Assembly (NCBI GenBank): GCA_946411695.1
Contig: CAMKEX010000013.1
Location: 1 to 32,503 of the forward strand
From: an uncultured Lachnospiraceae bacterium
Lineage (GTDB): Bacteria; Bacillota; Clostridia; Lachnospirales; Lachnospiraceae
DNA length: 32,503 nucleotides
Direction: 5' to 3'
A model generated the notes under the pieces. It was given only the letters and a program-made list of their open reading frames with translations. It was not told the DNA's origin and made no database searches. A program made the position numbers and the translations under genes. Shown here piece by piece: positions 5,904 through 28,891 of the stretch; within the stretch, counting starts at the first letter, position 1; each line of letters starts with the position of its first letter.

Positions 5904-6827
5904 ATGAATAGAGCAGACATTCCATTTGCAGTTTTGAAAATGATAGAGGACCCGGCTTATGATCTGTTCTTTGATGCATATGCTTCAGAATTTGGGAAAA
6001 AGAAAGCCAGGGAGATAGTACATTCATTAAGTGGAGAATGTCTAAATGACCGGGAAATGGGATGGTGCATTCCTAATTTATCAGTACTGATGGAGCGTTG
6101 GGAAAGATTGGAGGAAGCCAGCCCATTTAATGAAAAGCTTCTTAACGGACTGGTTATACCTTTCTTCCGTCCAAACGAAGCATATGGAGTCCTCAGCCAA
6201 TGGTTTAGGAGCTATTTCACAATTGAAGGAGTTACATATAAAACAGCAGAACAATATATGATGGCAAGAAAAGCCTTGCTGTTTCATGATTACGCCGCCT
6301 TTGATAAAATCATTCAAGAAGAGGATCCGGCTGAATGTAAAGCGTTGGGGCGCGAAGTACGTCATTTTAAGAATGAGGAATGGATGACTTGTAGAGAGGA
6401 GATCGTTTTTAATGGGAACTATGCAAAGTTCAAGCAGAATCGCTTTCTTACACGCGTACTTCTAAGAACCGGTGATGCTGTTCTTGCAGAGGCGAATCCT
6501 CATGATAAGATATGGGGCGTAGGCCTTTCTGCGACCGTTGAAAGAGGTAAAAAAGCCAATCCGGCAATTCAGGATCAAAAGAAATGGCGCGGAAAGAATC
6601 TTTTGGGAAATATTCTTATGCAGGTGCGTGAGAGATTGAAATTGGAATACCAGCAGTTCGAGATTATTGATCTTGGCAGACGGGCAGCTTTTGATAATCT
6701 AGATCCGGATCATTACAATGTTTCGGATGAACAGAGAGATGCCATGGAACAATATCTGAAAGCAATACTGGGTGTCAGAAGATGGGATACAGGCGGCAGA
6801 CTGATTCCCTATGAAGAAAAGCATTAA
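5904..6827 (+). CDS. NADAR (YbiA-like, DUF1768) domain protein
   Basis: 307 aa; start ATG 5904 after a strong AGAGGAGG. Residues about 85-240 form a NADAR domain: FFRPNEAYGVLSQWF (Phe/Asn/Glu nucleotide-contact region), TYKTAEQYMMARKALLF, the central EEWMTCREEIVFNGNYAKF, and the end ANPHDKIWGVGLS plus NLLGNILMQVRERL. Family knowledge: NADAR proteins act on ADP-ribose-type or riboflavin-pathway N-glycosides, and some reverse guanine ADP-ribosylation of DNA in DarT-NADAR systems. Here about 80 extra N-terminal residues and a 60-residue C-terminal extension flank the domain. No DarT-like toxin is seen next to it, so a stand-alone protective or anti-defence role is only inferred. The gene is more AT-rich than topB or the helicase, consistent with cargo. 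Confidence 0.88.
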   Translation: MNRADIPFAVLKMIEDPAYDLFFDAYASEFGKKKAREIVHSLSGECLNDREMGWCIPNLSVLMERWERLEEASPFNEKLLNGLVIPFFRPNEAYGVLSQWFRSYFTIEGVTYKTAEQYMMARKALLFHDYAAFDKIIQEEDPAECKALGREVRHFKNEEWMTCREEIVFNGNYAKFKQNRFLTRVLLRTGDAVLAEANPHDKIWGVGLSATVERGKKANPAIQDQKKWRGKNLLGNILMQVRERLKLEYQQFEIIDLGRRAAFDNLDPDHYNVSDEQRDAMEQYLKAILGVRRWDTGGRLIPYEEKH

Positions 6828-8718: not shown

Positions 8719-11700
8719 ATGGCACGCTTCAATGACATACGGACGTTGGCAGAGACCCACGCGTCCGAGATCTCCCGGTCCGTCCGTGCATGGACCGGCT
8801 ACCTTGACACGGCGTCCCAGCTCTACCGCTATAACTTTGCGGACACTCTGCTGATCCACGCCCAACGTCCCGATGCGACAGCCTGTGTGGAGCTGGAGAC
8901 CTGGAACAACCGTATGGGGCGATGGGTCAACCGCGGGGCAAAGGGAATCGCCCTGATCGATGACAGTGGCCCCCGCAAGCGTCTTCGCTATGTTTTTGAC
9001 ATCTCTGATACCCACATGGTTCGAGGAGGGAAGACCCCCTATCTATGGCAGATGGACACACAGCTCCGGTCGGAGATGGCGGACTACCTGATGGACACCT
9101 ATGGCCTCGACTATGATCCCGAGGCTTCGCTCAGCACGGTACTGATGGCTCTGGCAAAAACACAAGTGGAGGAGAACCTTAAAGATGCGATGGACGGACT
9201 CGCCTATGAGATTCAGGGTACTTACCTGGAGGGACTTGGGGAAGATGCCATACAGGAGAACTTCCGCAGGCTCCTGGAGAACAGTACCTACTACATGCTG
9301 GCAAGACGCTGCGGGCTTGATCCCATGGATGAACTGACACCTGACGACTTTTTGGGACTCTCCAACTTCAACCGGCTTTCTGTCCTGTCCTTTCTAGGAA
9401 ACGCCGCTCATGACATCGCAGAGCCGGTCTTGAAGGATATCGGCAGGGAAGTAATCTTCCGCTACCGAGCTATTGCAGCTGAAAGAAAAGTGGATGAATT
9501 ACTACAGCAGAGAGGGTTTTCTGTTGAAAATGAAAATGAAGTGGCTTATAATGAATTTCACACGTTAATTCGCGAAAGCGCAAATGGTGAAGAGCACTCG
9601 CCTGAAGAGCCAGAAGAAACCACACAGGATAAAGAAGAAGGAGGAACAGACCATGGAAGTGACTTACACGAGGAAGGGCGATTACCTGTTTCCGGACCTG
9701 ACGATCGAAGAAGAGCCGGCAGTAATCGGGAAGTACGGGATGTTACGCAGGACGTTCCTGAAGGAGAACAAAAAGAACTGGTACCAGAGCATGCTGCTGA
9801 CAGGGAAGCTGGAGAGGCACCTCGAGGAGATCGACCAGACAGCGGACGAGCAGATGGAGAGGATCTCGGCGGAGATGGCACAGAGAGAAGGCGTGGACGA
9901 GAAGCTGAAGGCAGCAGACCAGATGGAATGGATCCGACGGATGAACAGCATCCGGAGCCGCGCGGAAGAGACCGTTCTGAGGGAATTGGTGTACAGCTGA
10001 TCCCGGAGGAAGCCCTGGAAGACATCGATGAAAATAGAACCGTTGATAATAGAGTCATTGATCTTACCAGTGAATCAAGTGCACATTCCGGTTCAGGACC
10101 TGGTTCAGCAGAAGCAGTAGAAGCAGAAATACAGAAGACATCCGAAGCAGAGGACACAAGATCCCCTGCTTTTTTCATGCCTCCGATCACCGTATTTCCT
10201 TCATTTCCAACTGCCAGTCAGCAGAGAAGGCAGATTGAACAGCGAATGGATGCCGCCTTTGCAGGTGAATCCAACATACCATCAGAAGTCATTGATGAAT
10301 TCCTGCGGACCGGAGGCAACCGCAATAGGAGCCAGCTCCGCATCATCTATCACTTTATGACGGATCCCTCTCCTGAGGAAGCAGCAGAGTTTGTCCGCCG
10401 CGAGTATGGAAAAGGTGGAAAAGGGCTCACCATAGGTGAAACTGACTACTCCGTCTGGTTTGATGAAGCAGGCATGAAGATCTCTGCCGGACACTCTGTG
10501 GATGAACCTCTCGCAGAGAAGGCCTACCTGTCCTGGGAGGATGTTTCCGGACGGATTCGCCAGCTTCTTGCACAGGGAGAATTCGCTCCCCAGTCAGTTC
10601 TCGATGCAGCGAGGGAAAATGCCCTTCATGAACATGCCACAGCGCTGGTCTACATGGAACATGACCTTGCCGACGGGATCGCGGAGATTGTATTTGATGA
10701 CACTTCGGTATTTGAGGGCGGTTTCCCGGGTGCGGTGCAGAAAGTATCCGAGCGTCTGGATGATCCTGCATATCTTGATGACCTCGTGGAACGCCTGGAG
10801 GGGCTTTCAGCCGCCTATGCGGAGTCCCCGGAGATCATGCGTTTTCCATTTTACAACCCTGACAGGATGCTGGCGCAGTTCCGCCAGTTTTCAAAGGAGT
10901 ATGTTCCTTTTGACGCCAGGGACGGCTTTGCATGGGAGGAGCATTCCATCTTTATCACACAGGAAGAGGCGGACGCTTTTCTCGCCTCAGGAGGCCCTTA
11001 CTCCGATGGAAGGATCGCAACCTATTCCTTCTTCCTCCGGCATGAGGATACCCAGGAGCGGGCGGAATTCCTCAAGAACCAGTACGGAACCGGCGGGCGC
11101 ACCCACGCTCTTTCCGGAGCGGATGATTCTTACGCGGATTACAGTGCAAAAGGCATTGTCCTCACCCGCGGAGATAACGACCACCCTGCTTCCTACAGCA
11201 TGACTTATAGCCAGGCTGCCCGTCGCGTCGATCATCTGATCAGCCAAGACCGTTTTCTTACGGCACAGGACCATATACGGATGCCTTCTTATGAACGTGA
11301 ACAGCTGGCGGCAGGTGTGATCCGTTTCTACACGGCGACACCGCCTGTATCCCAGTGGCCATTTACCGGAAGCATCTTTGATATGGAGACCCGCAAAGAA
11401 ATCGCCGCTATGATTGAAGATCCCGAAAAACTCTCCGGGCTGCTGGCCGGGATGGATACAGCGCTTGCCGGAGTCCCAGAAACAGACCCGCGATATCAGA
11501 TGAGGGTTGATGCGCTTGCAGACCTTCACTCATATGCAGAAGGAACCTATACACTGTTTCCGCAGAGGAGGCAGGAACTTGCGATTCCCGATGCACGCCA
11601 GATGTCCCTGACAGATCTGTTTGAGATGAATGTCCCGGAGGGCGCGGTGCAGATTCAGTTGCCTGTTCAGGAAGGGGCCGAACGCTTTACGGCAGCGCTG

Positions 11701-14700
11701 CCTGAAACGGAACGGTCTGAACACGCTTCAACAGAACAGCACAAAGCGGAAATATCCGGGATAGACACATCCGAAACAGAGCAGCCGGATGCTGATCCGG
11801 ACACCTCCTCCTGGGATTCCGTAACACAGGAGGCTGGAACAGATGCACCCCTGTCTGCAGAAGCTGCAACGGAATACAATGCCCTGAAACAGGAGCATTC
11901 CTTCTCTCTGGTGGGCTTTGAACAGAACGGAAACTTTGAGTTTTACGGTGAGGATGCCCGTATCATCGCAGGTCTTTACGGCGAGGAGCCTTTGAAAAAG
12001 GAGTTTCCTGGCGGCACTGTGGACATGATCAGATTTGCAAGTGACCACTGGGAGCCTGAACTCCAGTATCTATGGAGCAGGGGAAACAGTGTTTATCTTG
12101 CAGGAGAGAATGAGGACGGGACTCACTATGAAACTGCGAGCGTCTTTAAAGAGGATTTTCTCCCGATCAACTCAAGGCTCAGGATCTCCGACAGGGATTA
12201 TAGGATTGACAGTGTCGATTTTGCAAACGGTACAGTATCCCTGCAGGATATGACCATGGCAAGGGAAGCCCGTTATCCCATCTTTCGCACGGAATCCGTT
12301 GAATATATCCGCTCCTTCTATGAGGAACAGTATCAGGATATTCCGGATCTTGAGACTGAAACAGAAACATCAGTCCTTGAAGAAACACAGCCTGCAGATA
12401 TCGCTGCAATTGATTCTGCAGAATCCAGGGACCTTCAAACCGGTGACCGTCCTTCGGAACCGGGAACCGTTGATCCATCAACTGCGCAGGTGGAAGGGCT
12501 TCGGGAAGCCTCTATTCATAAAGCGGAATCTTCAAATAACCGTGTGAGTGTGCCTGATACTGAAAACTCCCCACAAATGCCACAAAAACAGGTATCCGAG
12601 CGCCGCGAGGAAGAGATCGAGCAGGCTGTCTTCGATGCCCTTCAGGAATCCGGCACTGACTATGGCAATTACTCCCCAGAGCAGATGGATGTCCTTTATG
12701 ATGCCGCCGAAAAAGGCTTTGACCTTGTTTCTCTCTGCAATCCGCAGTATCCGCCCCAGCAGATGCAGCTCATCGTGGATATGCAGGCCCGCATGGAAGC
12801 CCATACCATTGCCCATTTCCAGGGAGTGATTGGACAGATCACAGGGGATGCACTTAGTATCGACGAGATCAATTCCATCCGAGCCGCTAATCTTCTTCCT
12901 TTGGAAGAAACCAGTCTGCAGGGCACCAACAATCCGAAAAAAAGGACTCAAACAAGTCCACAATTACCAGAAACAGGCCATCCACAGACACAGGAAAGCA
13001 CGGATGATACCGGTTCTCGCGACGTTGTCATCGATCTGACTCCGGATGGACAGGTGGAAAGGATCAGCCATGCTCAATTTGGTACTGAAATACAGGTACT
13101 GCCTCCCGAACTCCACAACTTCCGTATCACAGATGACGACCTCGGAGCCGGTGGGCCCAAAGCAAAATTCCGCGCCAACATGGATGCCATCTATATGCTG
13201 AAAACACTGGAAGCGGAAAACCGGCTTGCCACTCCTGAGGAGCAGGAAAGGCTTTCCCGCTATGTAGGATGGGGTGGAATCCCCCAGGCATTTGATGAAA
13301 ACAGCCGCGACTGGCATGGTGAAGTGGCGGAACTCAAAGCGGCTCTTACTACGGAGGAATACCGCGAAGCCAGGGCAAGCACGCTGAACGCTTTTTATAC
13401 TTCCCCCACTGTGATCAAGGCCATTTACGGGGCACTGGAACAGATGGGGCTTTCCTCCGGCAATATGCTTGAACCGTCCTGCGGCGTCGGCAACTTCATG
13501 GGGCTCCTTCCGGAGAGCATGTCCGACATGCGGATGTACGGTGTGGAGCTTGATTCTGTCTCCGGCAGGATCGCACAGCAGCTATATCAGAAAAACAACA
13601 TCGCTGTTCAGGGATTCGAGACGACCTCCTTCCCGGACAGCTTTTTTGATGCCGTGATCGGTAACGTGCCCTTCGGCCAGTACAAAGTCGTCGATGCCAG
13701 ATATGACCGGCACAATTTCCTGATCCATGATTATTTCATTGCAAAATCCCTCGACCTGGTCCGTCCCGGCGGCGTAGTGGCTGTCATCACCTCCAGCGGC
13801 ACTATGGACAAGCAGAACGAATCTGTAAGGAAGTATCTTGCTCACAGGGCTGATCTGCTCGGTGCCGTCCGCTTGCCCAACAATGCCTTTATGCGCAATG
13901 CAAACACAGGTGTGGTGGCGGACATCCTCTTCTTTCAGAAAAGGGACCGCATGTCCCTGGAAGAACCCGACTGGGTGCACCTAGCGGAAACCAAAGAGGG
14001 ATATATGATCAACAGCTACTTTAAGGATCATCCGGAAATGGTTCTGGGAGAACTTACGACTGAAAGCACCCAGTACGGCAGGCAGGAAGTCACGGTGAAG
14101 CCCGTCGAAGGCGCTGTTCTCGCGGAACAGCTTCAGGAAGCCATGGGCCATATCCATGGCGAGATCACCGCACCGGAAGTAACGGATTCCGAACTGGAGG
14201 ATGAAGATCTCTCCATCCCTGCAGACCCTTCCGTAAAAAACTTCAGCTACACCAACATCGATGGGCATGTCTACTATCGGGAGAACTCCCGTATGAACCG
14301 CATGGAGCTTCCGGCGACAACGGCAGAGCGCGTGCTCGGCATGATCGAGCTGCGCGACACTGTTCAGGAATTGCTGCAGGCACAGTTGGACGACCAGAGT
14401 GATGCAGAAGTTGCCTCTATCCAGAGACGCCTGAACCGCCGCTACGATGAATTCACTGCCCAGTACGGGATCATCAGCAGCAACGCTAACCGCAGGGCCT
14501 TTTCCCAGGATTCCAGCTACTGCCTCCTGGCTTCCCTGGAAATCCTTGATGAGGAAGGAAAGTTTGACCGGAAGGCAGATATTTTCACCAAACGCACCAT
14601 ACGACGCTCGGAGCCGGTCACCAGCGTGGATACCGCAGTGGAGGCACTGGCCCTCTCCATCGGCGAGAAAGCACGGGTCGATCTGCACTACATGGCAGAG

Positions 14701-17700
14701 CTCACTGGCAAAACAAAGGACGAGATCACAGAAGAACTCACTGGCGTCATCTTCAGAAATCCGCTGACAGACCAATATGAAAATGCGGATGAATATCTAT
14801 CCGGCAATGTCAGGGAGAAGCTCCGGACCGCAAAAGAGTTTGCGCAGAACCATCCTGAATATCAGGTCAATGTCACTGCCCTGGAGCGAGTCCAGCCCAA
14901 GGATCTCGACGCTTCGGAGATCGAAGTCCGCCTCGGCGCGACCTGGGTGGATCCGGAGTATATCACAGAATTTATGGGCGAGACCTTCAAGACTCCCTGG
15001 TACCTGCTGGGCAAAGATATTGACGTCCGCTATGCGGAGGTCAACGGACAGTGGAATATCTCCGGAAAGAACAGGGACAGCTACGGCAACCCGCTCGTCA
15101 CTTCCACCTATGGGACCACTCGCGTCAACGCTTATAAACTCCTGGAGGATGCCCTGAATCTGCGTGATACGAAAATCTATGACAACGTGGAGGATGCTGA
15201 AGGAAATGTACGCCGTGTCCTAAACCGCAAGGAGACCATGCTGGCCCAGCAGAAACAGGAAATGATCAAGGAAGCCTTCAAGGAATGGATCTTCCGTGAT
15301 CTGGAAAGGAGGGAAAAGCTATGTGAGAAGTACAACGAACTGTTCAACAGCATCCGTCCCAGGGAATATGACGGCTCCCATATCCGCTTTGTCGGGATGA
15401 CGCCGGAAATCTCCCTGATGGACCACCAGAAGAATGCCGTCGCCCACATCCTGTACGGGGACAACACACTCCTCGCCCACTGTGTCGGGGCTGGGAAAAC
15501 CTTCCAGATGATCGCCGCGGGCATGGAATCAAAGCGCCTTGGTCTTGCCCAGAAATGCCTCTACGTCGTCCCCAACCACCTGATCGAACAGTGGGGGAGC
15601 GACTTCATGCGGCTCTATCCCGGGGCAAATATCCTTGTCGCAACAAAGAAGGACTTCGAGCCGGCCAACAGGAAGAAGTTCTGCTCCCGCATCGCGACTG
15701 GGGACTACGATGCCGTCATCATCGGCCACAGCCAGTTTGAGCGCATCCCGCTCTCACGGGAGCGTCAGGTCGCGACCATCCAACGCCAGATCGACGATAT
15801 CGAGGATGCCATCTCCGAGTTGAAATACGATCGTGGAGAAAACTACACCATCAAACAGATGGAGAAGACCCGCCGGACACTGGAAGTACGTCTCGCAAAG
15901 CTGAATGACCAGAAGCGCAAGGACGATGTCGTGACCTTTGAGCAACTGGGCGTAGACAGGCTGTTCGTGGATGAAAGTCATTTTTACAAGAATGCCTTTT
16001 TCTACACCAAGATGCGCAACGTCGCGGGTATTGCCCAGTCTGACGCGCAGAAGTGTTCCGACATGTTCATGAAATGTCAGTACTTGGACGAGATCACCGG
16101 CGGCAAGGGCGTCACCTTCGCAACAGGCACACCGGTCTCTAACTCTATGGTGGAGCTATATACTGTCATGCGTTATCTGCAGTACGGCACCCTGCAGAAG
16201 CTGGGCATGGGGCATTTTGACTCCTGGGCAGCCGCCTTTGGCGAGACCGTCACAGCCATCGAACTGGCACCGGAGGGAACGGGGTATCGCGCCAAGACCC
16301 GCTTTGCCAAGTTCTACAACCTGCCGGAGTTGATCACCCTTTTCAAGGAGTGTGCCGACATCCAGACTTCGGACATGCTGGATCTCCCCGTTCCGGAAGC
16401 GGAGTACATCAACGAGGTTTTAAAGCCCAGTGAGGAGCAGAAAGAGCTTGTCTCTACCTTTGCTGACCGTGCGGAGGCCGTCCGTTCCGGAAAGGTCCAG
16501 CCCACAGAGGACAACATGCTCAAGATCACCAACGACGGGAGAAAGTGCGCTCTGGATCAGCGCCTGATCAATCCCATGCTGCCGGATAATCCGGAGAGCA
16601 AGGTCAACCGCTGTGTCGAGAACATGTTCAGGGTCTGGAAGGACACGGAAAAGGATCGGTCCACCCAGCTCTGCTTCTGTGACCTCTCCACACCCAAGGG
16701 CGACGGATCCTTCAACGTCTACGATGACATCCGCGAAAAGCTCGTCGCAAAGGGCGTCCCGAAGGAGGAAGTCGCCTTTATCCATGAGGCCAACACAGAG
16801 ACCAGAAAGGAGGAATTGTTTGCCAAAGTCCGCTCCGGCCAGGTACGGATCCTGATGGGGTCCACGCCCAAGCTCGGCGCCGGCACAAATGTGCAAGACA
16901 GGCTCATCGCCCTGCACCATCTCGACTGCCCCTGGAAGCCCTCCGACCTGGAACAGCAGGAAGGCAGGATCCTTCGCCAAGGCAACAGAAACCCGAAAGT
17001 TCAGATCTTCCGCTATGTCACGGAGGCAAGTTTCGACAGCTACATGTGGCAGATCCTGGAACAGAAGCAGAAATTCATCTCCCAGATCATGACCTCCAAG
17101 TCCCCTGTCCGCTCCTGTGAGGATGTGGACGACACCGCCCTCTCCTATGCGGAGATCAAGGCCCTGGCTACTGGAAATCCCGCCATCAAGGAAAAGATGG
17201 ATCTTGATATCCAGGTCAGCCGTCTGAAACTCCTCAAAGCAAACCACACCAATGAGCACTATCGTCTGGAATCTGATATCGCCCGCACCTACCCCATGCA
17301 GATCACTTCCGTCAAGGAACGGATCGGCGGCCTGCAATCCGACCTTTCTGCTGTCAAAACTCTGCATGCACAGCAGGAAAAGGACAAGGAAAGCGACACG
17401 GACAGCTTCACCATGACCATCGGTGGAAAAGAGTTCACGGACAGGAAGGAGGCAGGGACCGCTCTTATCGCGGCCTGCGCAGGCCTTAAGGCCGTCCGCA
17501 CGGAAGGGATCATTGGCGAGTACGCGGGCTTTTCCATGAGCGCCAGCTTCGACGGTTTCCGTCAGGCCTACATGCTGACTCTGAAGCGCCAGTGCAGTTA
17601 CACCGTAGAGGTGGGAAAAGACCCGTCCGGCAATATCACAAGGATCCAGAATGTCCTTTACGGCGTGGAACGGCAGCTTGCGGAATCTCAGCAGAAACTG

Positions 17701-18123
17701 GAGAACCTGCAGGGACAGCTCGCCGCCGCAAAAGAGGAAGTCCAGAAACCCTTTGCCCATGAAGCGGAGCTTGTGGAGAAATCCGCCCGTCTGGCCGAAC
17801 TCAACGCTATGCTCAACATGGACGAGCGATCCCCTGTGGAGACTCTGGGCGTGGATGAGGAGACGGACCAGTCAACTCACGAAGGCAGCAAAGAAAGATA
17901 TACTGCCACGGTTGCCGACCGGGCAGCAGGATCAGAGACCTATGCCGACAAGGCAGCTTCTCTGAAGGAACAGTCTCTGAGGAAAGAACATGTATCCGGA
18001 AAGAATAAAACTACAGGCAAAGAATCTCTGATTGAACGCCTGCAGAGCAAAAAAGCAGAAATCGCAGAATCAGCAAGATGTACTGATGTACGGATAAAGG
18101 CAAGACCGGAGCCTGCTTTGTAA
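8719..18123 (+). CDS. Giant ICE protein: adenine methylase plus SF2/SNF2-type helicase
   Basis: 3134 codons from ATG 8719 (GAAAGGAG before it). In order: an N-terminal ArdC/LtrC-like domain (about 1-255; [27 protein letters not shown]); a charged linker (about 290-430) whose DNA also encodes TnpV in another frame; two copies of a roughly 150-residue module (about 496-650 and 709-870; pattern FLxxGG then EYGxGG / QYGTGG); a beta-rich module near 1052-1160; an N6-adenine methylase ([12 protein letters not shown] about 1514, [12 protein letters not shown] about 1583, NVPFGQY about 1649, a variant of NPPF); then a helicase with Walker A CVGAGKT about 2255, DESH box about 2418, and C-terminal motifs [12 protein letters not shown] about 2715 and [11 protein letters not shown] about 2746. 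A coiled coil and a [15 protein letters not shown] tail end it. Such proteins typify Tn1549-like ICEs. Probable roles are DNA unwinding and protection by methylation during transfer, but these are not proven. Confidence 0.92.
9653..10000 (+). CDS. tnpV: TnpV, encoded in another frame inside the giant gene
   Basis: A 115-aa frame, +1 relative to the surrounding methylase/helicase frame, starts at ATG 9653 and stops at TGA 9998-10000. Its own ribosome site GAAGGAGG (about 9635-9643) lies at good spacing, inside the larger gene. The product is a recognisable TnpV (transposon-encoded protein): [42 protein letters not shown], then [20 protein letters not shown] and a terminal VLRELVYS. In the larger frame the same DNA encodes a Gly/Arg/Asp/Glu/Pro-rich linker, as expected where that frame is the less constrained one. 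The function of TnpV is unknown. The match to the family covers its whole length. Confidence 0.85.
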
Positions 18124-18219: not shown

Positions 18220-20325
18220 ATGGCAGAAAAAAATGTAAGTGATCGTTACGTATCTCGGGAACAGGAGCTGTCTGTGTCCGTTTCGGAGAAGGCCCCCAAC
18301 AGGGTCAATGTTGTCGGGGATAGAAAAGCGCAGGAAAAGAAGACCCGGGATAAGAACGAGAAGGTACCAGAGCATGTTTCCGACTCTGGCATGAAGGGCA
18401 AGAAAAGCTATGAAGAGATTCTGGCAGCCAGAAAGGAGCAGATGAAGGAAATCACAGAACGTCTGGAGGCTGGTCTGAAAGAGTATATGGCATCAGACGA
18501 GCAGTTCAAAAAGGTCCTGGATACGATGGCCAAATTTCATCATTACAGTGCCAACAACGTACTTCTGATTGCCATGCAGATGCCCTCAGCTACACGGGTG
18601 GCATCGTACAATACCTGGCAGAAGCGTTTCAATCGGCAGGTCATGAAGGGGCAGCATGGGATCTCCATTATTGCGCCGGCGCCTTATAAGAAAAAGACAT
18701 CACAAGAAATACAGGATCCACGAACTGGAAAGACAGTGCTTGGACCGGATGGAAAGCCGAAGACAAAAGAAGTTGAGATTACCGTTCCCCGCTACAAGGT
18801 CGCAAAGATATTTGATATCTCTCAGACAGTTGGAGAACCGCTTCCTGAGCTGGATGTTCCTGAACTGACGGGTACAGCTGAAAACTTTGAGATCTTTATG
18901 GACGCTATGCGTGCAGTCTCACCTGTGCCGATCCGATTTGATGAGATCAAGGGAGAGTCAAAAGGCTATTACGACAGCACTAACAAGGAGATTGTTATCC
19001 AGAGCGGAATGAGTGAGGTTCAGACCATGAAGACCACAGCGCATGAGCTGGCTCATGCCCGGCTCCATGATCGGGATACCATGCGAGAACAGGGTGTTAT
19101 AAAAGACCAGAACACACGGGAAATTGAGGCTGAGGCCTGTGCTCATGTACTGCTGTCCCATTATCATCTGGATTCCTCTGGCTATACGATTCCGTATTTG
19201 GCTTCGTGGTGCGGAAGCCAGGATACGTCCGCGCTCCGTGCTTCCATGGATACGATTCGAAAAACAGCCTCAGAGATCTTCGATGAAGTCGAAGCCTATA
19301 TCGCAGAGCGGGATGTGGACCGCTACACAATCTATCAAATCGATAAGGATAGTCCCGCAAGAGACTATTCATTTATGGATCTCGTATATGCCAGGGAGAC
19401 AGGAATTCCTCTGGCAATGGAATTCTACCAGGATGTTTATCATGGATACCTGCGTCCCGGTGATACTCTCGACAGCCTTTATGAGAAATTCAACCGAGAT
19501 GACCGCCCTGCAGCAGGGCAGATGCATTCCCTCAGCATGAGCGATGTGATTGTTCTTCATCAGGACGGAAAGGATAAAGCCTATTATGTGGATCGCGTCG
19601 GATTCGAGGAGCTTCCAGAGTTTTTCATTCCGGTACAGGAACAGGAAGCCTTCGAGCAGATAGACTCGGAAAAAGAAGAAATACCGTTTGAAGAGGCGAA
19701 TCAGGCTGTACCAGTAAATCCAACAGTCGTATCCCATGAACCCGATAAATCACAGGAAGTACATTCATCAGAGAACAGACCGAATATCTCAGATGACAAC
19801 ACGGATCATTCTGACTCTGATGAACAGAAGGATCACAAAGAAAGAACCCTTACCTTTTACGTTGCGGAGTGTATGGAGTTCCCTGTCATGGGGGAAGTTC
19901 ATCGGGGACTTACCCTTGAGGAGGCAGTAAAAGCACTCCGGGACATTCCGGATGACCGTATGCACGGAGGAAAAGGCATTGGTTTTGAACTGCAGGACGG
20001 AAGCGAATATGCAGGCAGCTTTCCTCTCGTCGTATCCGGACAGGTAAGGGAGGAGACAATCAACTCCGTGGATTATTATCGTGCCCATACCAGTCTTCAG
20101 GCGGCCATTGCTGAGGCAAAGTCTTTCTTCCCGGATCATTCTGTCACCGCCAAAGAAGAGCAAAGGACAGCACCTGCCAGAAAAGAGGAGAAAGCACCTG
20201 CGGGAAGAAAAGAATCAGTCCTTGCTGCCCTCAGGGCTCATCAGGAAAAAGCACGGGCTGAGGATAATGGACATAGAAGCAGGGAAACAACCAGGCAGCA
20301 CAGAAAGGGGGAATTATCCTTATGA
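18220..20325 (+). CDS. ArdC-like protein with ImmA/IrrE metallopeptidase and YodL domains
   Basis: 701 aa; start ATG 18220 after GAAAGGAGAG. Residues about 60-160 form an ArdC-type N-terminal domain that binds single-stranded DNA in relatives (FHHYSANNVLLIAMQ, ATRVASYNTWQKRF, KGQHGISIIAPAPYK). A zinc metallopeptidase follows: HELAH at 275-279, with a further acidic ligand likely in EIEAEACAHVLLSHY. A YodL domain (about 365-470; YTIYQIDKDSPARDYSFMDL, LSMSDVIVLHQDGKDKAYYV) comes next. After an acidic linker there is another small domain (LTFYVAECMEFPVMGEVHRG, PDDRMHGGKGIGFEL) of the kind attached to large mobile-element proteins. The end carries RKESVLAALRAHQEKA, the tail motif shared with other element proteins. 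ArdC proteins protect incoming DNA from restriction, and that is the likely role here. Confidence 0.87.
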   Translation: MAEKNVSDRYVSREQELSVSVSEKAPNRVNVVGDRKAQEKKTRDKNEKVPEHVSDSGMKGKKSYEEILAARKEQMKEITERLEAGLKEYMASDEQFKKVLDTMAKFHHYSANNVLLIAMQMPSATRVASYNTWQKRFNRQVMKGQHGISIIAPAPYKKKTSQEIQDPRTGKTVLGPDGKPKTKEVEITVPRYKVAKIFDISQTVGEPLPELDVPELTGTAENFEIFMDAMRAVSPVPIRFDEIKGESKGYYDSTNKEIVIQSGMSEVQTMKTTAHELAHARLHDRDTMREQGVIKDQNTREIEAEACAHVLLSHYHLDSSGYTIPYLASWCGSQDTSALRASMDTIRKTASEIFDEVEAYIAERDVDRYTIYQIDKDSPARDYSFMDLVYARETGIPLAMEFYQDVYHGYLRPGDTLDSLYEKFNRDDRPAAGQMHSLSMSDVIVLHQDGKDKAYYVDRVGFEELPEFFIPVQEQEAFEQIDSEKEEIPFEEANQAVPVNPTVVSHEPDKSQEVHSSENRPNISDDNTDHSDSDEQKDHKERTLTFYVAECMEFPVMGEVHRGLTLEEAVKALRDIPDDRMHGGKGIGFELQDGSEYAGSFPLVVSGQVREETINSVDYYRAHTSLQAAIAEAKSFFPDHSVTAKEEQRTAPARKEEKAPAGRKESVLAALRAHQEKARAEDNGHRSRETTRQHRKGELSL

Positions 20326-20681
20326 AGAAGATTACCTTTGATGAAGAAGAAATGTTTGTCATTGCCGTTTTCAATCCGGATACACGTTCCAATACGATTC
20401 ATATAATGAGTGAAGTTCTTCCTGAACTGAAAGATGATCAGGATATGTTTGACCTGCTGTTAAGTGCCATGGAAAAGCTGAAAAAGATCTCTGATGATGA
20501 GTATAAAAAAATGGATCTCTCGGATTACCGTGATGAAATCGAATGGGCTATCGAAGAGGAGGGGCAGGAGAATCCCGAGGAAGAAGGGCTGCAGAAGGAG
20601 CAGGGGATCACTGATAAACCTCAGGAGCAAGCGGAGTCTGATTCTGCATATGATGATAAAAGCATGGAGGAAGATGAATGA
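20322..20681 (+). CDS. TTRAP-like transposon-transfer assisting protein
   Basis: 119 aa. The first about 70 residues (ITFDEEEMFVIAVFNPDTRS, LPELKDDQDMFDLLLSAMEKL, ISDDEYKKMDLSDY) match the small TTRAP family (transposon-transfer assisting protein, Pfam PF14203), normally 60-80 aa. The remainder is a Glu/Asp/Gln-rich disordered tail. ATG 20322 overlaps the upstream stop (ATGA) and has the site AAAGGGGG, so it is translationally coupled to the ArdC-like gene; it is coupled in the same way to the next gene. The biochemical role of TTRAP is unknown. Confidence 0.75.
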   Translation: MKKITFDEEEMFVIAVFNPDTRSNTIHIMSEVLPELKDDQDMFDLLLSAMEKLKKISDDEYKKMDLSDYRDEIEWAIEEEGQENPEEEGLQKEQGITDKPQEQAESDSAYDDKSMEEDE

Positions 20682-21592
20682 GCGGCAGGGTGAACCAGTT
20701 TGTGATCTATCGCCTCAGACGTGATAAGAAAGAGATTCGTGCCTTGCGCCACCAGTCCTACCAGTATCTTAAGGAATACGGCTTTACGATCAATTCAGAT
20801 GATTACGTGCAGCTTTATCTTGCCAGCTTTGATCCGGCACTAATACTTACACCGCAAGATCTGCGTAAAAGTATCGATCAGGACTTGCCGAGAGGCGTAA
20901 CCGGAAAAGCCCTTGAAACAGGAGATATCCTTGCGATCACCAGAGATGGCATCTCAAAAGCCTATTTCGTAGATCCTGACAGGCTTGTTCCTCTTAGTGG
21001 ATTCTTCCATGTCACCTCTTCATCTACAGTCCTGAATACAAACACAAGCGGCTATGCAATTGAAGGACGGGAAGGACTGTGGAGCGCAGCAGAAGAGATG
21101 TGGATCGATGGCCAGAACTTCCTGCTTATGCAGAGTGACGAATATGACGATGAAGTGGCCTTTGCAGTTCTTGACAGCCATGGAAAGACGGCGGCGGCAG
21201 ATACCATGGACGGCTTTACAGACCAGGTTATCGAGCAGATTCGGGAATACATGCACAGATGCAGAACGCCGATGCGCCAATCTTCTGAGAATGTTGACAA
21301 GGGATCTGATGCAAACAAATCTTCTACGATGGCGTCTAAAAACACCACCGAGAATACAGAGGCTGAACTTACGCCAGTGGGAAAAACGGAAATTCTTCCT
21401 CCTGAAGAATCAGCTCCGGAAAGAGGCCGACTCAAGCGGGATGAGAAAAAAGAACAAGAAGCACGACAGCGTAGGAAGAAAAGACGAAAAAAAGGCAAAC
21501 TTCCACTAAAGGGCAGGGATTCTGTCCTTGACAGGTTAAAGAGATACCAGGAGAAGGTCAGAAAGAAAGCAGAAGCGGGTACACTTGTATGA
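20678..21592 (+). CDS. YodL/DUF4316-type domain protein
   Basis: 304 aa; ATG 20678 overlaps the TTRAP stop (ATGA). Residues about 6-110 are a second YodL-like domain (NQFVIYRLRRDKKEIRALRH, YVQLYLASFDP, TGDILAITRDGISKAYFVD, RLVPLSGFF). A middle segment (SGYAIEGREGLWSAAEEMW, FAVLDSHGKTA) looks like a small polyvalent-protein-associated domain. The final about 90 residues are charged, with a run of Arg/Lys (QRRKKRRKKGK) followed by GRDSVLDRLKRYQEKVRKKA, the shared C-terminal motif. YodL domains are attached to mobile-element DNA-processing proteins and their function is unknown. The gene is last in the ArdC-TTRAP-YodL set and is followed by a strong terminator. Confidence 0.75.
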   Translation: MSGRVNQFVIYRLRRDKKEIRALRHQSYQYLKEYGFTINSDDYVQLYLASFDPALILTPQDLRKSIDQDLPRGVTGKALETGDILAITRDGISKAYFVDPDRLVPLSGFFHVTSSSTVLNTNTSGYAIEGREGLWSAAEEMWIDGQNFLLMQSDEYDDEVAFAVLDSHGKTAAADTMDGFTDQVIEQIREYMHRCRTPMRQSSENVDKGSDANKSSTMASKNTTENTEAELTPVGKTEILPPEESAPERGRLKRDEKKEQEARQRRKKRRKKGKLPLKGRDSVLDRLKRYQEKVRKKAEAGTLV

Positions 21593-26727: not shown

Positions 26728-28527
26728 TTAAAGAGAAGGATCCGTATTCCTGGAAGACTGCTTGATTTGCGGCACTTCTCTTACTTTTGCTTCTTCGATT
26801 CCAAGAATTGCATCAACGTTTGCAGAAGCGGTCTGCAGATTTCTTTGTGCCTGCAGAAGAGTATTCCGTGAAGTCAGTTGCTCTTGCTTATGGGATTGAA
26901 GAATTTCTTTTTTCTCTTTTAAATCTTTGATTAGAGGAATATTGCCAGCATTGTTGTCTTTGAAAAAACTAACGGCTTCATCGTAACGATCCAGTTCATT
27001 CCGATGGGTTGAGCGGAACCCTCCTTTTTTCCAGGATTTCATAAAGTCAGAATGTACAGCCCGGTTTGCATAGTATTGACCAGCAAAATGAATCTGCTGA
27101 TTAATATCTTTAGTCTCGGCGTCGGCATTCCTTATTCTTGTTTCTAAGCCTTTTAATTGTTCAGTAAGTTCTGCCTGTTTTTCTTTTAATTCCTCTCTTG
27201 AATGGATTCCAAGCTCCTGAATATAGACAACTGTTCTAGCCATTTCCTTCAGATTTGAGATCTTTACTTTTCTCGCATATGCTGTGTTCATTTGGGCTTT
27301 TATATTTGTCTGTAGATCAACGACAAGTCTGAGCTCTGTGCGGATAAATAGAATCGCGACCGGATCTGCATGGTAGTCGTAAGAGGGATTGTAGTCAACC
27401 AAGATTCCTTTTTTGCCGGCGCAGTAAGCGGCAGCCATTTTTTCCCCGGTCATTTCGGAAACAGGCAATGTTTCCTGATTCGTTTTGTCACCGGTCTTAT
27501 TATTTCCCTGCATAAGGACTTTCTGAGAAGGGATAGTCTTCTGACGGGAAGATGCTTTGCTTGGGTGATCAGGACTACGGTTGTCTTTTTCGGAACATAT
27601 CTTCTGAATTCGTTCAAGCAAGCACTCTTTTTCATAATCCGTTCCTAGAGCACGCCCCGTAATAAACTTCTTCCGGTCAGGATGCAGGTAGCTGAATCTG
27701 CCGCGTCGGTCTTTCAATTCTATTCCGTATTTTTCTTTTAGTATTCTTCTAAATTCTTCCAGCGTGGTGGAATGATCTGCCGCATCGAGAATAGCATCAC
27801 GGAGAAATTGTTTCTGCGTTCGGAAGACAGTGTTTCGCGGAATCATCTGTGCCGCCCGGATCTTTTCGTTACGGGCATCCATAGCAATTTGTCCGGATTC
27901 ACGTGCTTCATATTCAGCGTTTGTGATTTTTGTTTTTGCAGGAGTCAGAAGATCCACCTGATGAAGTCCTTCCCTCTCGCAGATCTTCATGACTTGTGCC
28001 TGCATATATTTAAGATATCTCGGCGTCAGGTTGTGTTTGTAACCTGCACGGCTGTCTATATCCCTTTCCATAAATGGCTGCTTCTCAACATCCAGTTTCC
28101 TCAGACTGTTTAGAATTAAATGAACATGAATGTTGCCGCTCCCGTGATGTCCGTCGCTATGGGTACAGACGAGGATCTGGTGTCCGGGAAAACATCTTTG
28201 GGCGAATTCCATTCCAAGCTCGTGAGCATGTGCAGGATCAAGCAATCCTTCCTCTTTATCTTTTGGATCAAAGCTCAGGATGTAATGATGCGACTTGATA
28301 TCATTGTAATTCTGGTTTTTGCGGTACTGCCAGTTCAGCATTTCACATTCCTTATCGAAATAAAGCGGCGTGCAGTTGATTCCGTCCAGGATAAACGAAT
28401 CTCTCATAATGAGATTACCATCTGCATCTCGCAGAGGAGTTCCATTTCTGTCATGCTCGAACATCAGGTACTTAATGGGCTTTCCATAGTCGGCACTTTT
28501 ACTTGCGAGATGTTTTAACGTAGCCAC
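26728..28527 (-). CDS. MOBP-type relaxase (Tn1549-like)
   Basis: 599 aa with GTG 28527 as start, since GGAGGTGAG (28540-28532) lies 8 nt before it and the product then begins VATLKHLASKSADYG like other family relaxases. The relaxase nicks oriT and stays bound to the transferred strand. Visible motifs are an N-terminal Tyr region (ADYGKPIKYLMFEHD), SHHYILSFDPKD and the HUH metal motif GSGNIHVHLILNS (HVH about residues 134-136), preceded by VCTHSDGHHG. The C-terminal half (IRNADAETKDI and repeated Gln/Glu/Lys helices) is helical and specific to this family, ending RNTDPSL. It overlaps mobC by 29 nt, so translation is coupled. The nearest relatives I recall are Tn1549-type elements; the exact subgroup is not certain. 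Confidence 0.9.
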   Translation of the reverse strand: MATLKHLASKSADYGKPIKYLMFEHDRNGTPLRDADGNLIMRDSFILDGINCTPLYFDKECEMLNWQYRKNQNYNDIKSHHYILSFDPKDKEEGLLDPAHAHELGMEFAQRCFPGHQILVCTHSDGHHGSGNIHVHLILNSLRKLDVEKQPFMERDIDSRAGYKHNLTPRYLKYMQAQVMKICEREGLHQVDLLTPAKTKITNAEYEARESGQIAMDARNEKIRAAQMIPRNTVFRTQKQFLRDAILDAADHSTTLEEFRRILKEKYGIELKDRRGRFSYLHPDRKKFITGRALGTDYEKECLLERIQKICSEKDNRSPDHPSKASSRQKTIPSQKVLMQGNNKTGDKTNQETLPVSEMTGEKMAAAYCAGKKGILVDYNPSYDYHADPVAILFIRTELRLVVDLQTNIKAQMNTAYARKVKISNLKEMARTVVYIQELGIHSREELKEKQAELTEQLKGLETRIRNADAETKDINQQIHFAGQYYANRAVHSDFMKSWKKGGFRSTHRNELDRYDEAVSFFKDNNAGNIPLIKDLKEKKEILQSHKQEQLTSRNTLLQAQRNLQTASANVDAILGIEEAKVREVPQIKQSSRNTDPSL

Positions 28528-28891
28528 GATACTCACCTCCAAATGTCAGAAGTTCCTCCCTCATTTTCATCACCTCATTGATACAGCGGCGAAGCTCTTC
28601 CTGCATTGCTTCTGACTTCACTCCACCCATGTGAAAATACTTTGTCAGCTGGTTCAGATTATTGCTGATCGAAGACAGTTCGGCGGCAATCTTTTCCAGC
28701 GATGAAAAATTGGCAACAATGTGATTATGAATTTCAATCTTTCCATAGATCGCCTGATGTCGCATATATGCCGCCATCTTCATACCTGTAGCTTTTGCCG
28801 CGCTTTGCACTAAGGCATATTGTGTGTCATCCAGCAGTACTTTCATGTTGTGAGTTTTCTTTATTCCAGGATCTTTTTTAGGGTTAGGCAT
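28499..28891 (-). CDS. mobC: MobC-family relaxosome accessory protein
   Basis: 130 aa; start ATG 28891 (minus) with AAGGAG five bases upstream. The frame is open further upstream but has no ribosome site there. The N-terminus is a ribbon-helix-helix-like region (MKVLLDDTQYALVQSAAKAT, MAAYMRHQAIYG), followed by the MobC helical region (IAAELSSISNNLNQLTKYFH, then EELRRCINEVMKMREELLTF). MobC proteins bind near the nick site and help the relaxase open the strands. Adjacent, overlapping relaxase gene and upstream inverted repeats support this role. Confidence 0.88.
   Translation of the reverse strand: MPNPKKDPGIKKTHNMKVLLDDTQYALVQSAAKATGMKMAAYMRHQAIYGKIEIHNHIVANFSSLEKIAAELSSISNNLNQLTKYFHMGGVKSEAMQEELRRCINEVMKMREELLTFGGEYRGYVKTSRK

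Follow-up and report, generated by a model that had tools for sequence, protein, structure and literature searches.

Evidence for a conserved tnpV gene nested in the +1 frame of giant methylase/helicase genes

Two open frames at one locus

The window that we analyzed is a stretch of 32,503 nucleotides from an uncultured Lachnospiraceae bacterium. Among the open reading frames (ORFs) of the whole window is an unbroken frame of 3134 codons, which starts with an ATG at position 8719 and ends at position 18123 of the forward strand. The product of this outer gene (3134 aa) is a giant DNA methylase and SNF2-type helicase. It has Pfam matches to an Eco57I adenine methylase region (PF07669; residues 1636-1713, positions 13624-13857, +), an SNF2-related helicase region (PF00176, SNF2-rel_dom; residues 2236-2425, positions 15424-15993, +), and a helicase C-terminal domain (PF00271, Helicase_C; residues 2679-2755, positions 16753-16983, +). 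The protein thus carries an adenine methylase and an SNF2 helicase in one chain and is of the methylase-helicase polyvalent type. All of these matches lie beyond residue 1580, 3' of the overlap described below, and at E ≤ 1 there is no Pfam hit within residues 1-594. The N-terminal domain (residues 1-283; positions 8719-9567, +) served as the query for the searches described in the next section.

A protein with a NADAR domain, from a family for which NCBIfam has an anti-phage member model, is encoded upstream of the giant gene (5904-6827, +). Downstream lie genes for a protein with ArdcN, M78 peptidase, and YodL domains (18220-20325, +) and a protein with LPD18 and YodL domains (20678-21592, +), both of the polyvalent-protein kind. 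In addition to these ArdcN and LPD18 proteins, the window encodes a relaxase (26728-28542, -) and a topoisomerase III-like protein that scores just below the curated cut-offs.

Within the giant gene, in the +1 frame relative to it, a second frame runs on the same strand from an ATG at 9653 to a TGA ending at 10000 and encodes a protein of 115 aa. This inner protein matches the TnpV family (PF14198) over profile positions 1-111 of 111 (E = 8e-43; 145.4 bits, cut-off 27), and we refer to the gene as tnpV. A ribosome-binding site, GAAGGAGG (9637-9644, +), is located 8 nt 5' of the ATG. An alternative inner start at 9584 would give a protein of 138 aa, but we favor the start at 9653 because of its Shine-Dalgarno (SD) sequence. 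The first-pass annotation had described two real frames here and had placed tnpV at these coordinates with its own ribosome site and ATG. The unbroken outer ORF and the full-length inner family match bear this out, and the coordinates are correct.

Both frames are open throughout the overlap, which is therefore a same-strand nested overlap. The outer frame crosses it (9652-10000, +) as a linker rich in Gly, Arg, Ser, Glu, and Asp; across 114 loci, these five residues make up 54.6% of the outer-frame overlap, compared with 33.6% of the N-terminal part. At each of the TnpV loci that were compared initially, the third forward frame contains at least 4 stops. Opposite the overlap there is an antisense open frame of 210 codons (9558-10190, -) that is rich in Ser, Arg, and Pro and is probably a by-product of composition. 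A structural model of TnpV is confident (pLDDT 91) and largely helical. It matched no PDB fold at E ≤ 0.001, and the best match of the TnpV sequence to the PDB had E = 0.41.

Conservation of the nesting

We searched for the outer N-terminal domain in 392 genomes of the same order and found it in 96 of them, at 146 places. We took 120 of these loci, comprising every place outside the window whose open frame reaches 1000 aa plus two shorter ones, and left out 25 places with frames of less than 1000 aa. The TnpV profile was run over the six frames of each locus, with a limit of E = 1e-4 for 80 loci (L131-L210) and a laxer limit of E = 0.01 for the other 40 (L211-L250). A tnpV gene was nested in an intact outer frame at 112 of the 120 loci (79/80 in the first set and 33/40 in the second), although two of the 112 matches are weak (L233, 14 bits; L245, 22 bits). 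Three further loci were partial: in L248 and L250, tnpV is present and the outer frame is open over the overlap but broken upstream, and in L249 the contig ends after the first residues of the nested TnpV. The remaining five have no tnpV in place. None was detectable by the TnpV profile in the six frames of L230, L231, L239, or L242, and L194 has one only further downstream, outside the outer ORF. As these five outer genes lack a nested tnpV, the latter is dispensable.

The suggestion in the first-pass annotation that the nesting might be conserved is upheld by these homologous loci, which keep an open tnpV in place within an intact outer frame. All 117 in-place matches (from the order-wide loci and three plasmid records) share the +1 phase, and among them the identity of the N-terminal domain to that of the window falls as low as 24%. 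In L248, L250, and L252, the N-terminal domain of the outer frame is broken, yet the overlap is open and tnpV is intact. We rejected an assembly artefact as the source of the nesting, which is present in more than 100 loci, some of them on contigs longer than 3 Mb (in G305, G415, G149, and G341).

The N-terminal domain also matched 19 plasmid records and 17 records of a phage collection, of which we analyzed ten and two, respectively. In two of the first three plasmids, tnpV is nested in an intact ORF; in the third (Monoglobus), the outer frame is broken upstream. The other seven plasmids (from Streptococcus, Aerococcus, Listeria, Anaerococcus, Ruminococcus, and, twice, Enterococcus) have weak N-terminal domain identities of 24-31%, and the two phage-collection records have identities of 37% and 56%. 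In all nine of these records, the N-terminal domain is followed by a TnpV match in the +1 phase (E from 1.5e-9 to 3.5e-47 with a profile of nested copies). In the Aerococcus record, the outer frame stops shortly past the overlap, after 436 codons. The nested arrangement thus reaches plasmid records of Bacilli, Clostridia, and Tissierellia.

In nine plasmids that are annotated or partly annotated, the PLSDB gene table, which is incomplete, never lists both the giant gene and TnpV. In this table, only an SNF2 or helicase gene is listed for five plasmids (the original records may hold more), only TnpV for Cohnella and for Monoglobus (the one with the broken outer frame), and neither gene for two. 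The records with a one-sided or empty listing are L251, L252, and L302-L308; the Cohnella plasmid has an outer frame of 2086 codons without any listed gene.

TnpV also exists outside giant genes. In a phylum-wide sample, TnpV was found in 28 of 398 genomes, and 46 of 48 loci could be classified, 23 as nested and 23 as stand-alone (one stand-alone place, L276/L299, is counted twice); three short matches were left out of this sample. We added 13 of 20 earlier loci, the other seven having come out as nested (L005 at a contig end). The resulting 61 loci comprise 28 nested copies, 31 stand-alone copies, and two (L278 and L280) that were left unclassified for want of a profile match, with L276/L299 and L002/L300 each counted twice. 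About half of the classified TnpV genes are therefore nested. Every one of the 28 nested copies has the outer N-terminal domain upstream and no outer-phase stop. The domain was not found in the available flanks of any of the 31 stand-alone copies, nine of which are near a contig end, and all of these copies except L282 contain outer-phase stops. The genome from which the window comes has five TnpV matches, four nested (L001, L003, L004, and, at a contig end, L005) and one stand-alone (L002). One stand-alone copy, at L043:9914-10345, has a nested gene (L041) as its nearest kin, and no outer-gene homology was found in the 19.5 kb that were examined around it; it is a candidate for a recent escape.

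Selection on the two frames and the origin of the overlap

When the codons of 114 nested tnpV genes were shuffled synonymously, the shuffled genes had a mean of 3.25 outer-frame stops, and only 6.5 of the 114 would be expected to be open, compared with the 114 observed. Because the 114 were chosen as open, the count free of this selection is that of 112 among 120 loci given above. Another 24 nested copies were likewise all open, against an expectation of 2.6. Stand-alone tnpV genes have 0-23 stops in the same phase (mean 3.72), and 1 of 64 is open; their mean is nevertheless below the 5.36 found in their own synonymous shuffles. By the genetic code, an outer stop in this phase requires an inner codon that ends in T followed by AA, AG, or GA. 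Since a T-ending codon can always be replaced by a synonym with another last letter, keeping the outer frame open costs the inner protein no amino-acid change.

We compared substitution rates in 24 close pairs of nested copies, using each locus once, and recounted 20 of the pairs with a bootstrap. The inner dN/dS was 0.238 (95% bootstrap interval, 0.191-0.292) in the 20 pairs and 0.235 over all 24, and we conclude from these ratios that the inner frame is under purifying selection. Amino-acid constraint on the outer frame was not clearly detected in the overlap: the outer NS/SS ratio was about 1.1 with a wide interval (1.12, 0.669-2.480, in the 20 pairs, with few double-synonymous sites; 1.20 in the 24). 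Changes that create an outer stop occurred at 0.073 (0.019-0.140) of the level of other inner-synonymous changes in the 20 pairs, an approximately tenfold suppression. The few stop-creating differences that were counted are neighboring double changes, because no nested copy has a stop. In 25 of 34 more distant pairs, the corresponding values were 0.347 (inner), 0.938 (outer), and 0.099 (stop-creating). The inner dN/dS of 13 stand-alone pairs was also 0.238, with a value of 0.94 for the same outer-phase ratio, and stop-creating changes in stand-alone genes stood at 0.110 against 0.198.

Outside the overlap, the outer pN/pS of close pairs was 0.199 in the N-terminal domain and 0.223 downstream (0.285 on a wider set), and inside it the value was 2.39. 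This high value is explained by the coincidence of most outer synonymous positions with the second positions of inner codons. The outer synonymous rate was 0.027 in the overlap, compared with 0.195 and 0.227 outside it; relative to the flanks, outer synonymous change in the overlap was 0.10 in close pairs and 0.18 in distant pairs, a six- to tenfold drop. By these measures, the outer gene is under purifying selection, and its frame is kept open in the overlap. Inner-synonymous changes occurred at 0.70 (0.562-0.914) of the synonymous rate of the outer flanks, with a range of 0.70-0.75, so that a slight amino-acid constraint on the outer frame is possible. The first-pass annotation had proposed that the inner frame carries the constraint; our comparison of codon rates in both frames agrees, placing selection on the inner frame and not solely on the outer one, with the outer frame of the overlap showing suppressed stops and no clear amino-acid constraint.

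The drop in outer synonymous change marks the position of tnpV. In the comparison of the window with L131, tnpV contains the lowest of 304 scanned segments of the outer gene (0.077, compared with a median of 0.568), and the minimum coincided with tnpV in 8 of the 10 pairs scanned, this pair included. The exceptions were L132-L133, which are nearly identical elsewhere, and L143-L144, which share a long identical stretch of the N-terminal domain. We used the same scan to ask whether the outer gene holds another nested gene and rejected this, since the deepest minimum was tnpV in those eight pairs and near-identical stretches mask the other two. For the most part, the outer genes of L132 and L133 are near-identical, with a synonymous difference of 0.037, but they are more diverged around tnpV, which suggests recombination there.

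We examined the origin of the overlap with two unrooted TnpV trees. The first has 192 rows, with identical rows and rows shorter than 95 aa dropped; most of its stand-alone rows came from a search with the window's TnpV, towards which they lean. The second adds the phylum-wide sample and has 167 of 232 rows, after removal of eight long-branch rows and then of near copies with more than 85% identity. The nested and stand-alone labels require 5 changes on the first tree and 8 on the second, of which at least 4 are forced. In both trees, nested rows are spread over most of the diversity and stand-alone rows fall mainly in one group; in the second tree, but not in the first, this group encloses the nested clade of L202. 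The distances between N-terminal domains and between nested TnpV proteins are correlated (rho 0.83 over 114 loci; none of 200 permutations reached this value), as a long shared descent would predict. On the N-terminal domain tree, the five loci with no tnpV in place are scattered and require 5 changes, and this suggests losses; all five are on long branches, and two have less than half of the columns.

There is about an even chance that TnpV arose by overprinting, with the inner frame formed de novo in the linker of a giant gene and stand-alone copies passing later onto mobilizable elements, some of which inserted into giant SNF2 genes. Such a history would account for the spread of nested rows over most of both trees, for the confinement of stand-alone rows mainly to one group, and for the co-divergence of TnpV with the N-terminal domain. 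It would also fit the stop deficit of stand-alone genes relative to their shuffles, although base composition may produce the same deficit, and the pairing of stand-alone L043 with nested L041 in both trees. Elements that carry TnpV and are integrated into snf2 genes are described in the accessible part of one report (PMC9815147), and the lack of a PDB relative of the TnpV fold points weakly in the same direction. Against overprinting, the trees are unrooted, have only 117 columns, and contain forced changes of state, and the query used for the first tree may have shaped its stand-alone rows.

The main competitor, which we regard as less probable though a serious one, is that an independent tnpV gene entered the linker of an ancestral giant gene, whose outer frame was then opened by synonymous changes and kept open. 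Stand-alone genes are indeed frequent, making up 31 of the 59 copies that were classified (two places being counted twice). The +1 phase can carry any protein without amino-acid change, and in the second tree, unlike the first, the nested L202 group falls among the stand-alone copies. At 70 of 114 loci, codon choice in the overlap also resembles that of the remaining gene slightly more in the inner frame than in the outer frame. We rejected codon usage as a means of dating the two frames, as it is weak and confounded by the constraint on the inner frame. Insertion accords less well with nested copies that occupy most of the TnpV tree and co-diverge with the N-terminal domain, and with a nesting that reaches N-terminal domain identities of 24-31% in Bacilli, Tissierellia, and Clostridia. 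On this balance of sequence evidence, birth by overprinting followed by escape appears somewhat more likely than insertion. The full history, in which TnpV was born by overprinting in an ancestral methylase/helicase gene, was kept across Bacillota while its host gene was merely held open, and later escaped to mobilizable elements, some of which inserted into the same host genes, falls a little short of even odds.

Proposed internal initiation and comparison with known systems

The start of tnpV is conserved along with its reading frame. With starts chosen on the basis of the SD, the start codon is ATG in 112 of 114 nested copies, an SD match of at least 5 nt is present in 110, and the spacing between SD and start is 7-9 nt in 102. 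A combined start score of at least 6 was reached by 109 of the 114 nested tnpV genes, compared with 16 of 256 other +1 ORFs of at least 80 codons in the same genes; choosing starts in this way favors SDs by design, and the control ORFs were scored by the identical procedure. When starts were picked by distance alone, 11 of 114 loci had no SD-like match, but this choice misplaced the starts of N-terminally extended loci, and so we used the SD-based choice instead. Extended nested TnpV proteins with an upstream start are encoded in L202, L204, L206, L211, L212, and L214-L219, several of which have an SD-like site before that start. The SD is encoded by different outer codons in different lineages (for example, EGG or ERS), and thus it is kept as nucleotides.

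These features bear on the possibility that TnpV is reached by +1 ribosomal frameshifting, which would yield a fusion of the N-terminal domain and TnpV and no separate protein. In many loci, the inner frame is indeed open upstream of the ATG, by up to 252 nt. In many others, however, no more than 3-30 nt separate the ATG from an inner-frame stop; the spaced SD is present in 110 of the 114 copies, and in several loci an SD that is missing at the expected start is found farther upstream, where TnpV is N-terminally extended. We therefore consider frameshifting very improbable. It is more improbable still that one of the two frames is a chance open frame and not a gene: the linker-like outer sequence and the G+C-rich composition do lower the frequency of stops, but the full-length family match, the conservation, the avoidance of stops, and the selection in both frames refute this at the sequence level.

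We put at roughly nine in ten the probability that tnpV is a genuine, conserved nested gene that is read by internal initiation while the outer frame is kept open as a hydrophilic linker. The nesting, its phase, the conservation of the ribosome-binding site, and selection of both kinds can be read directly from the aligned loci, and the working that we propose goes beyond them. One message would carry both tnpV and the giant gene. Ribosomes that start at 8719 would read through to make the giant protein, with the overlap forming a hydrophilic linker that joins the N-terminal domain to the remainder of the chain, and ribosomes that start internally (SD at 9637-9644, ATG at 9653) would enter the +1 frame and make the helical TnpV of 115 aa. 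In the overlap, selection would act on the amino acids of TnpV and would mainly bar the outer frame from stop codons. Nesting would tie the production and inheritance of TnpV to those of the giant gene, and as a working proposal, TnpV may be a partner or regulator that acts with the methylase/helicase.

The recurrence of the tnpV/giant-gene pair in Clostridia, Bacilli, and Tissierellia provides a large natural data set on how overlapping genes arise, persist, and escape. Its signature is clean, in that the amino acids rest with the inner frame and the main demand on the outer one is to stay open, and it gives a genomic context to TnpV, a widespread protein. According to one account, nested genes are rare and anomalous in bacteria, and coding sequences inside larger genes are dropped by many annotation tools (PMC12350097, accessible text). 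We found no report of the nesting of tnpV in the literature on TnpV, its elements, and overlapping genes, mostly non-subscription papers; the accessible texts covered were those of PMC3158075, PMC9815147, PMC5512222, PMC10782964, PMC11913394, PMC9930590, PMC7168690, PMC6435816, PMC5633684, PMC5704250, PMC12350097, and PMC8665328.

By domain content, the outer gene resembles the methylase-helicase polyvalent proteins of Tn1549-like elements (PMC5512222) and the SNF2/COG4646 genes of Tn5252 and Tn1549 integrative and conjugative elements (PMC7168690). The accessible texts of these two papers do not mention a nested gene, and the words TnpV and overlapping are absent from the former. The inner protein belongs to the same family (PF14198) as TnpV of Tn4451, for which a role as an excisionase has been suggested and to which a product of Clostridium difficile Tn6104 is reported to be 48% identical (PMC3158075, accessible part). 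TnpV of Tn4451 and its stand-alone relatives are described as encoded by genes of their own on mobilizable elements, whereas the window's copy is nested in another gene.

Among known overlaps, comS of Bacillus subtilis likewise lies out of frame and on the same strand inside a giant gene, srfA (PMC12350097, accessible text). Compared with comS, which is much shorter, the nested gene described here encodes a Pfam family of 115 aa and keeps a single phase in several classes of Bacillota. The distribution of comS is narrow. Long coding in a second frame is likewise found in the overlapping genes of E. coli and Pseudomonas (PMC4683798, PMC9927249, PMC2268670), which include olg1 and olg2 of P. aeruginosa (PMC12350097). 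In the accessible parts of these sources, several of the overlaps are antisense or are called recent, and few are established. The nested tnpV, unlike them, lies on the same strand as its host gene, is old, and bears signatures of selection over more than 100 loci.
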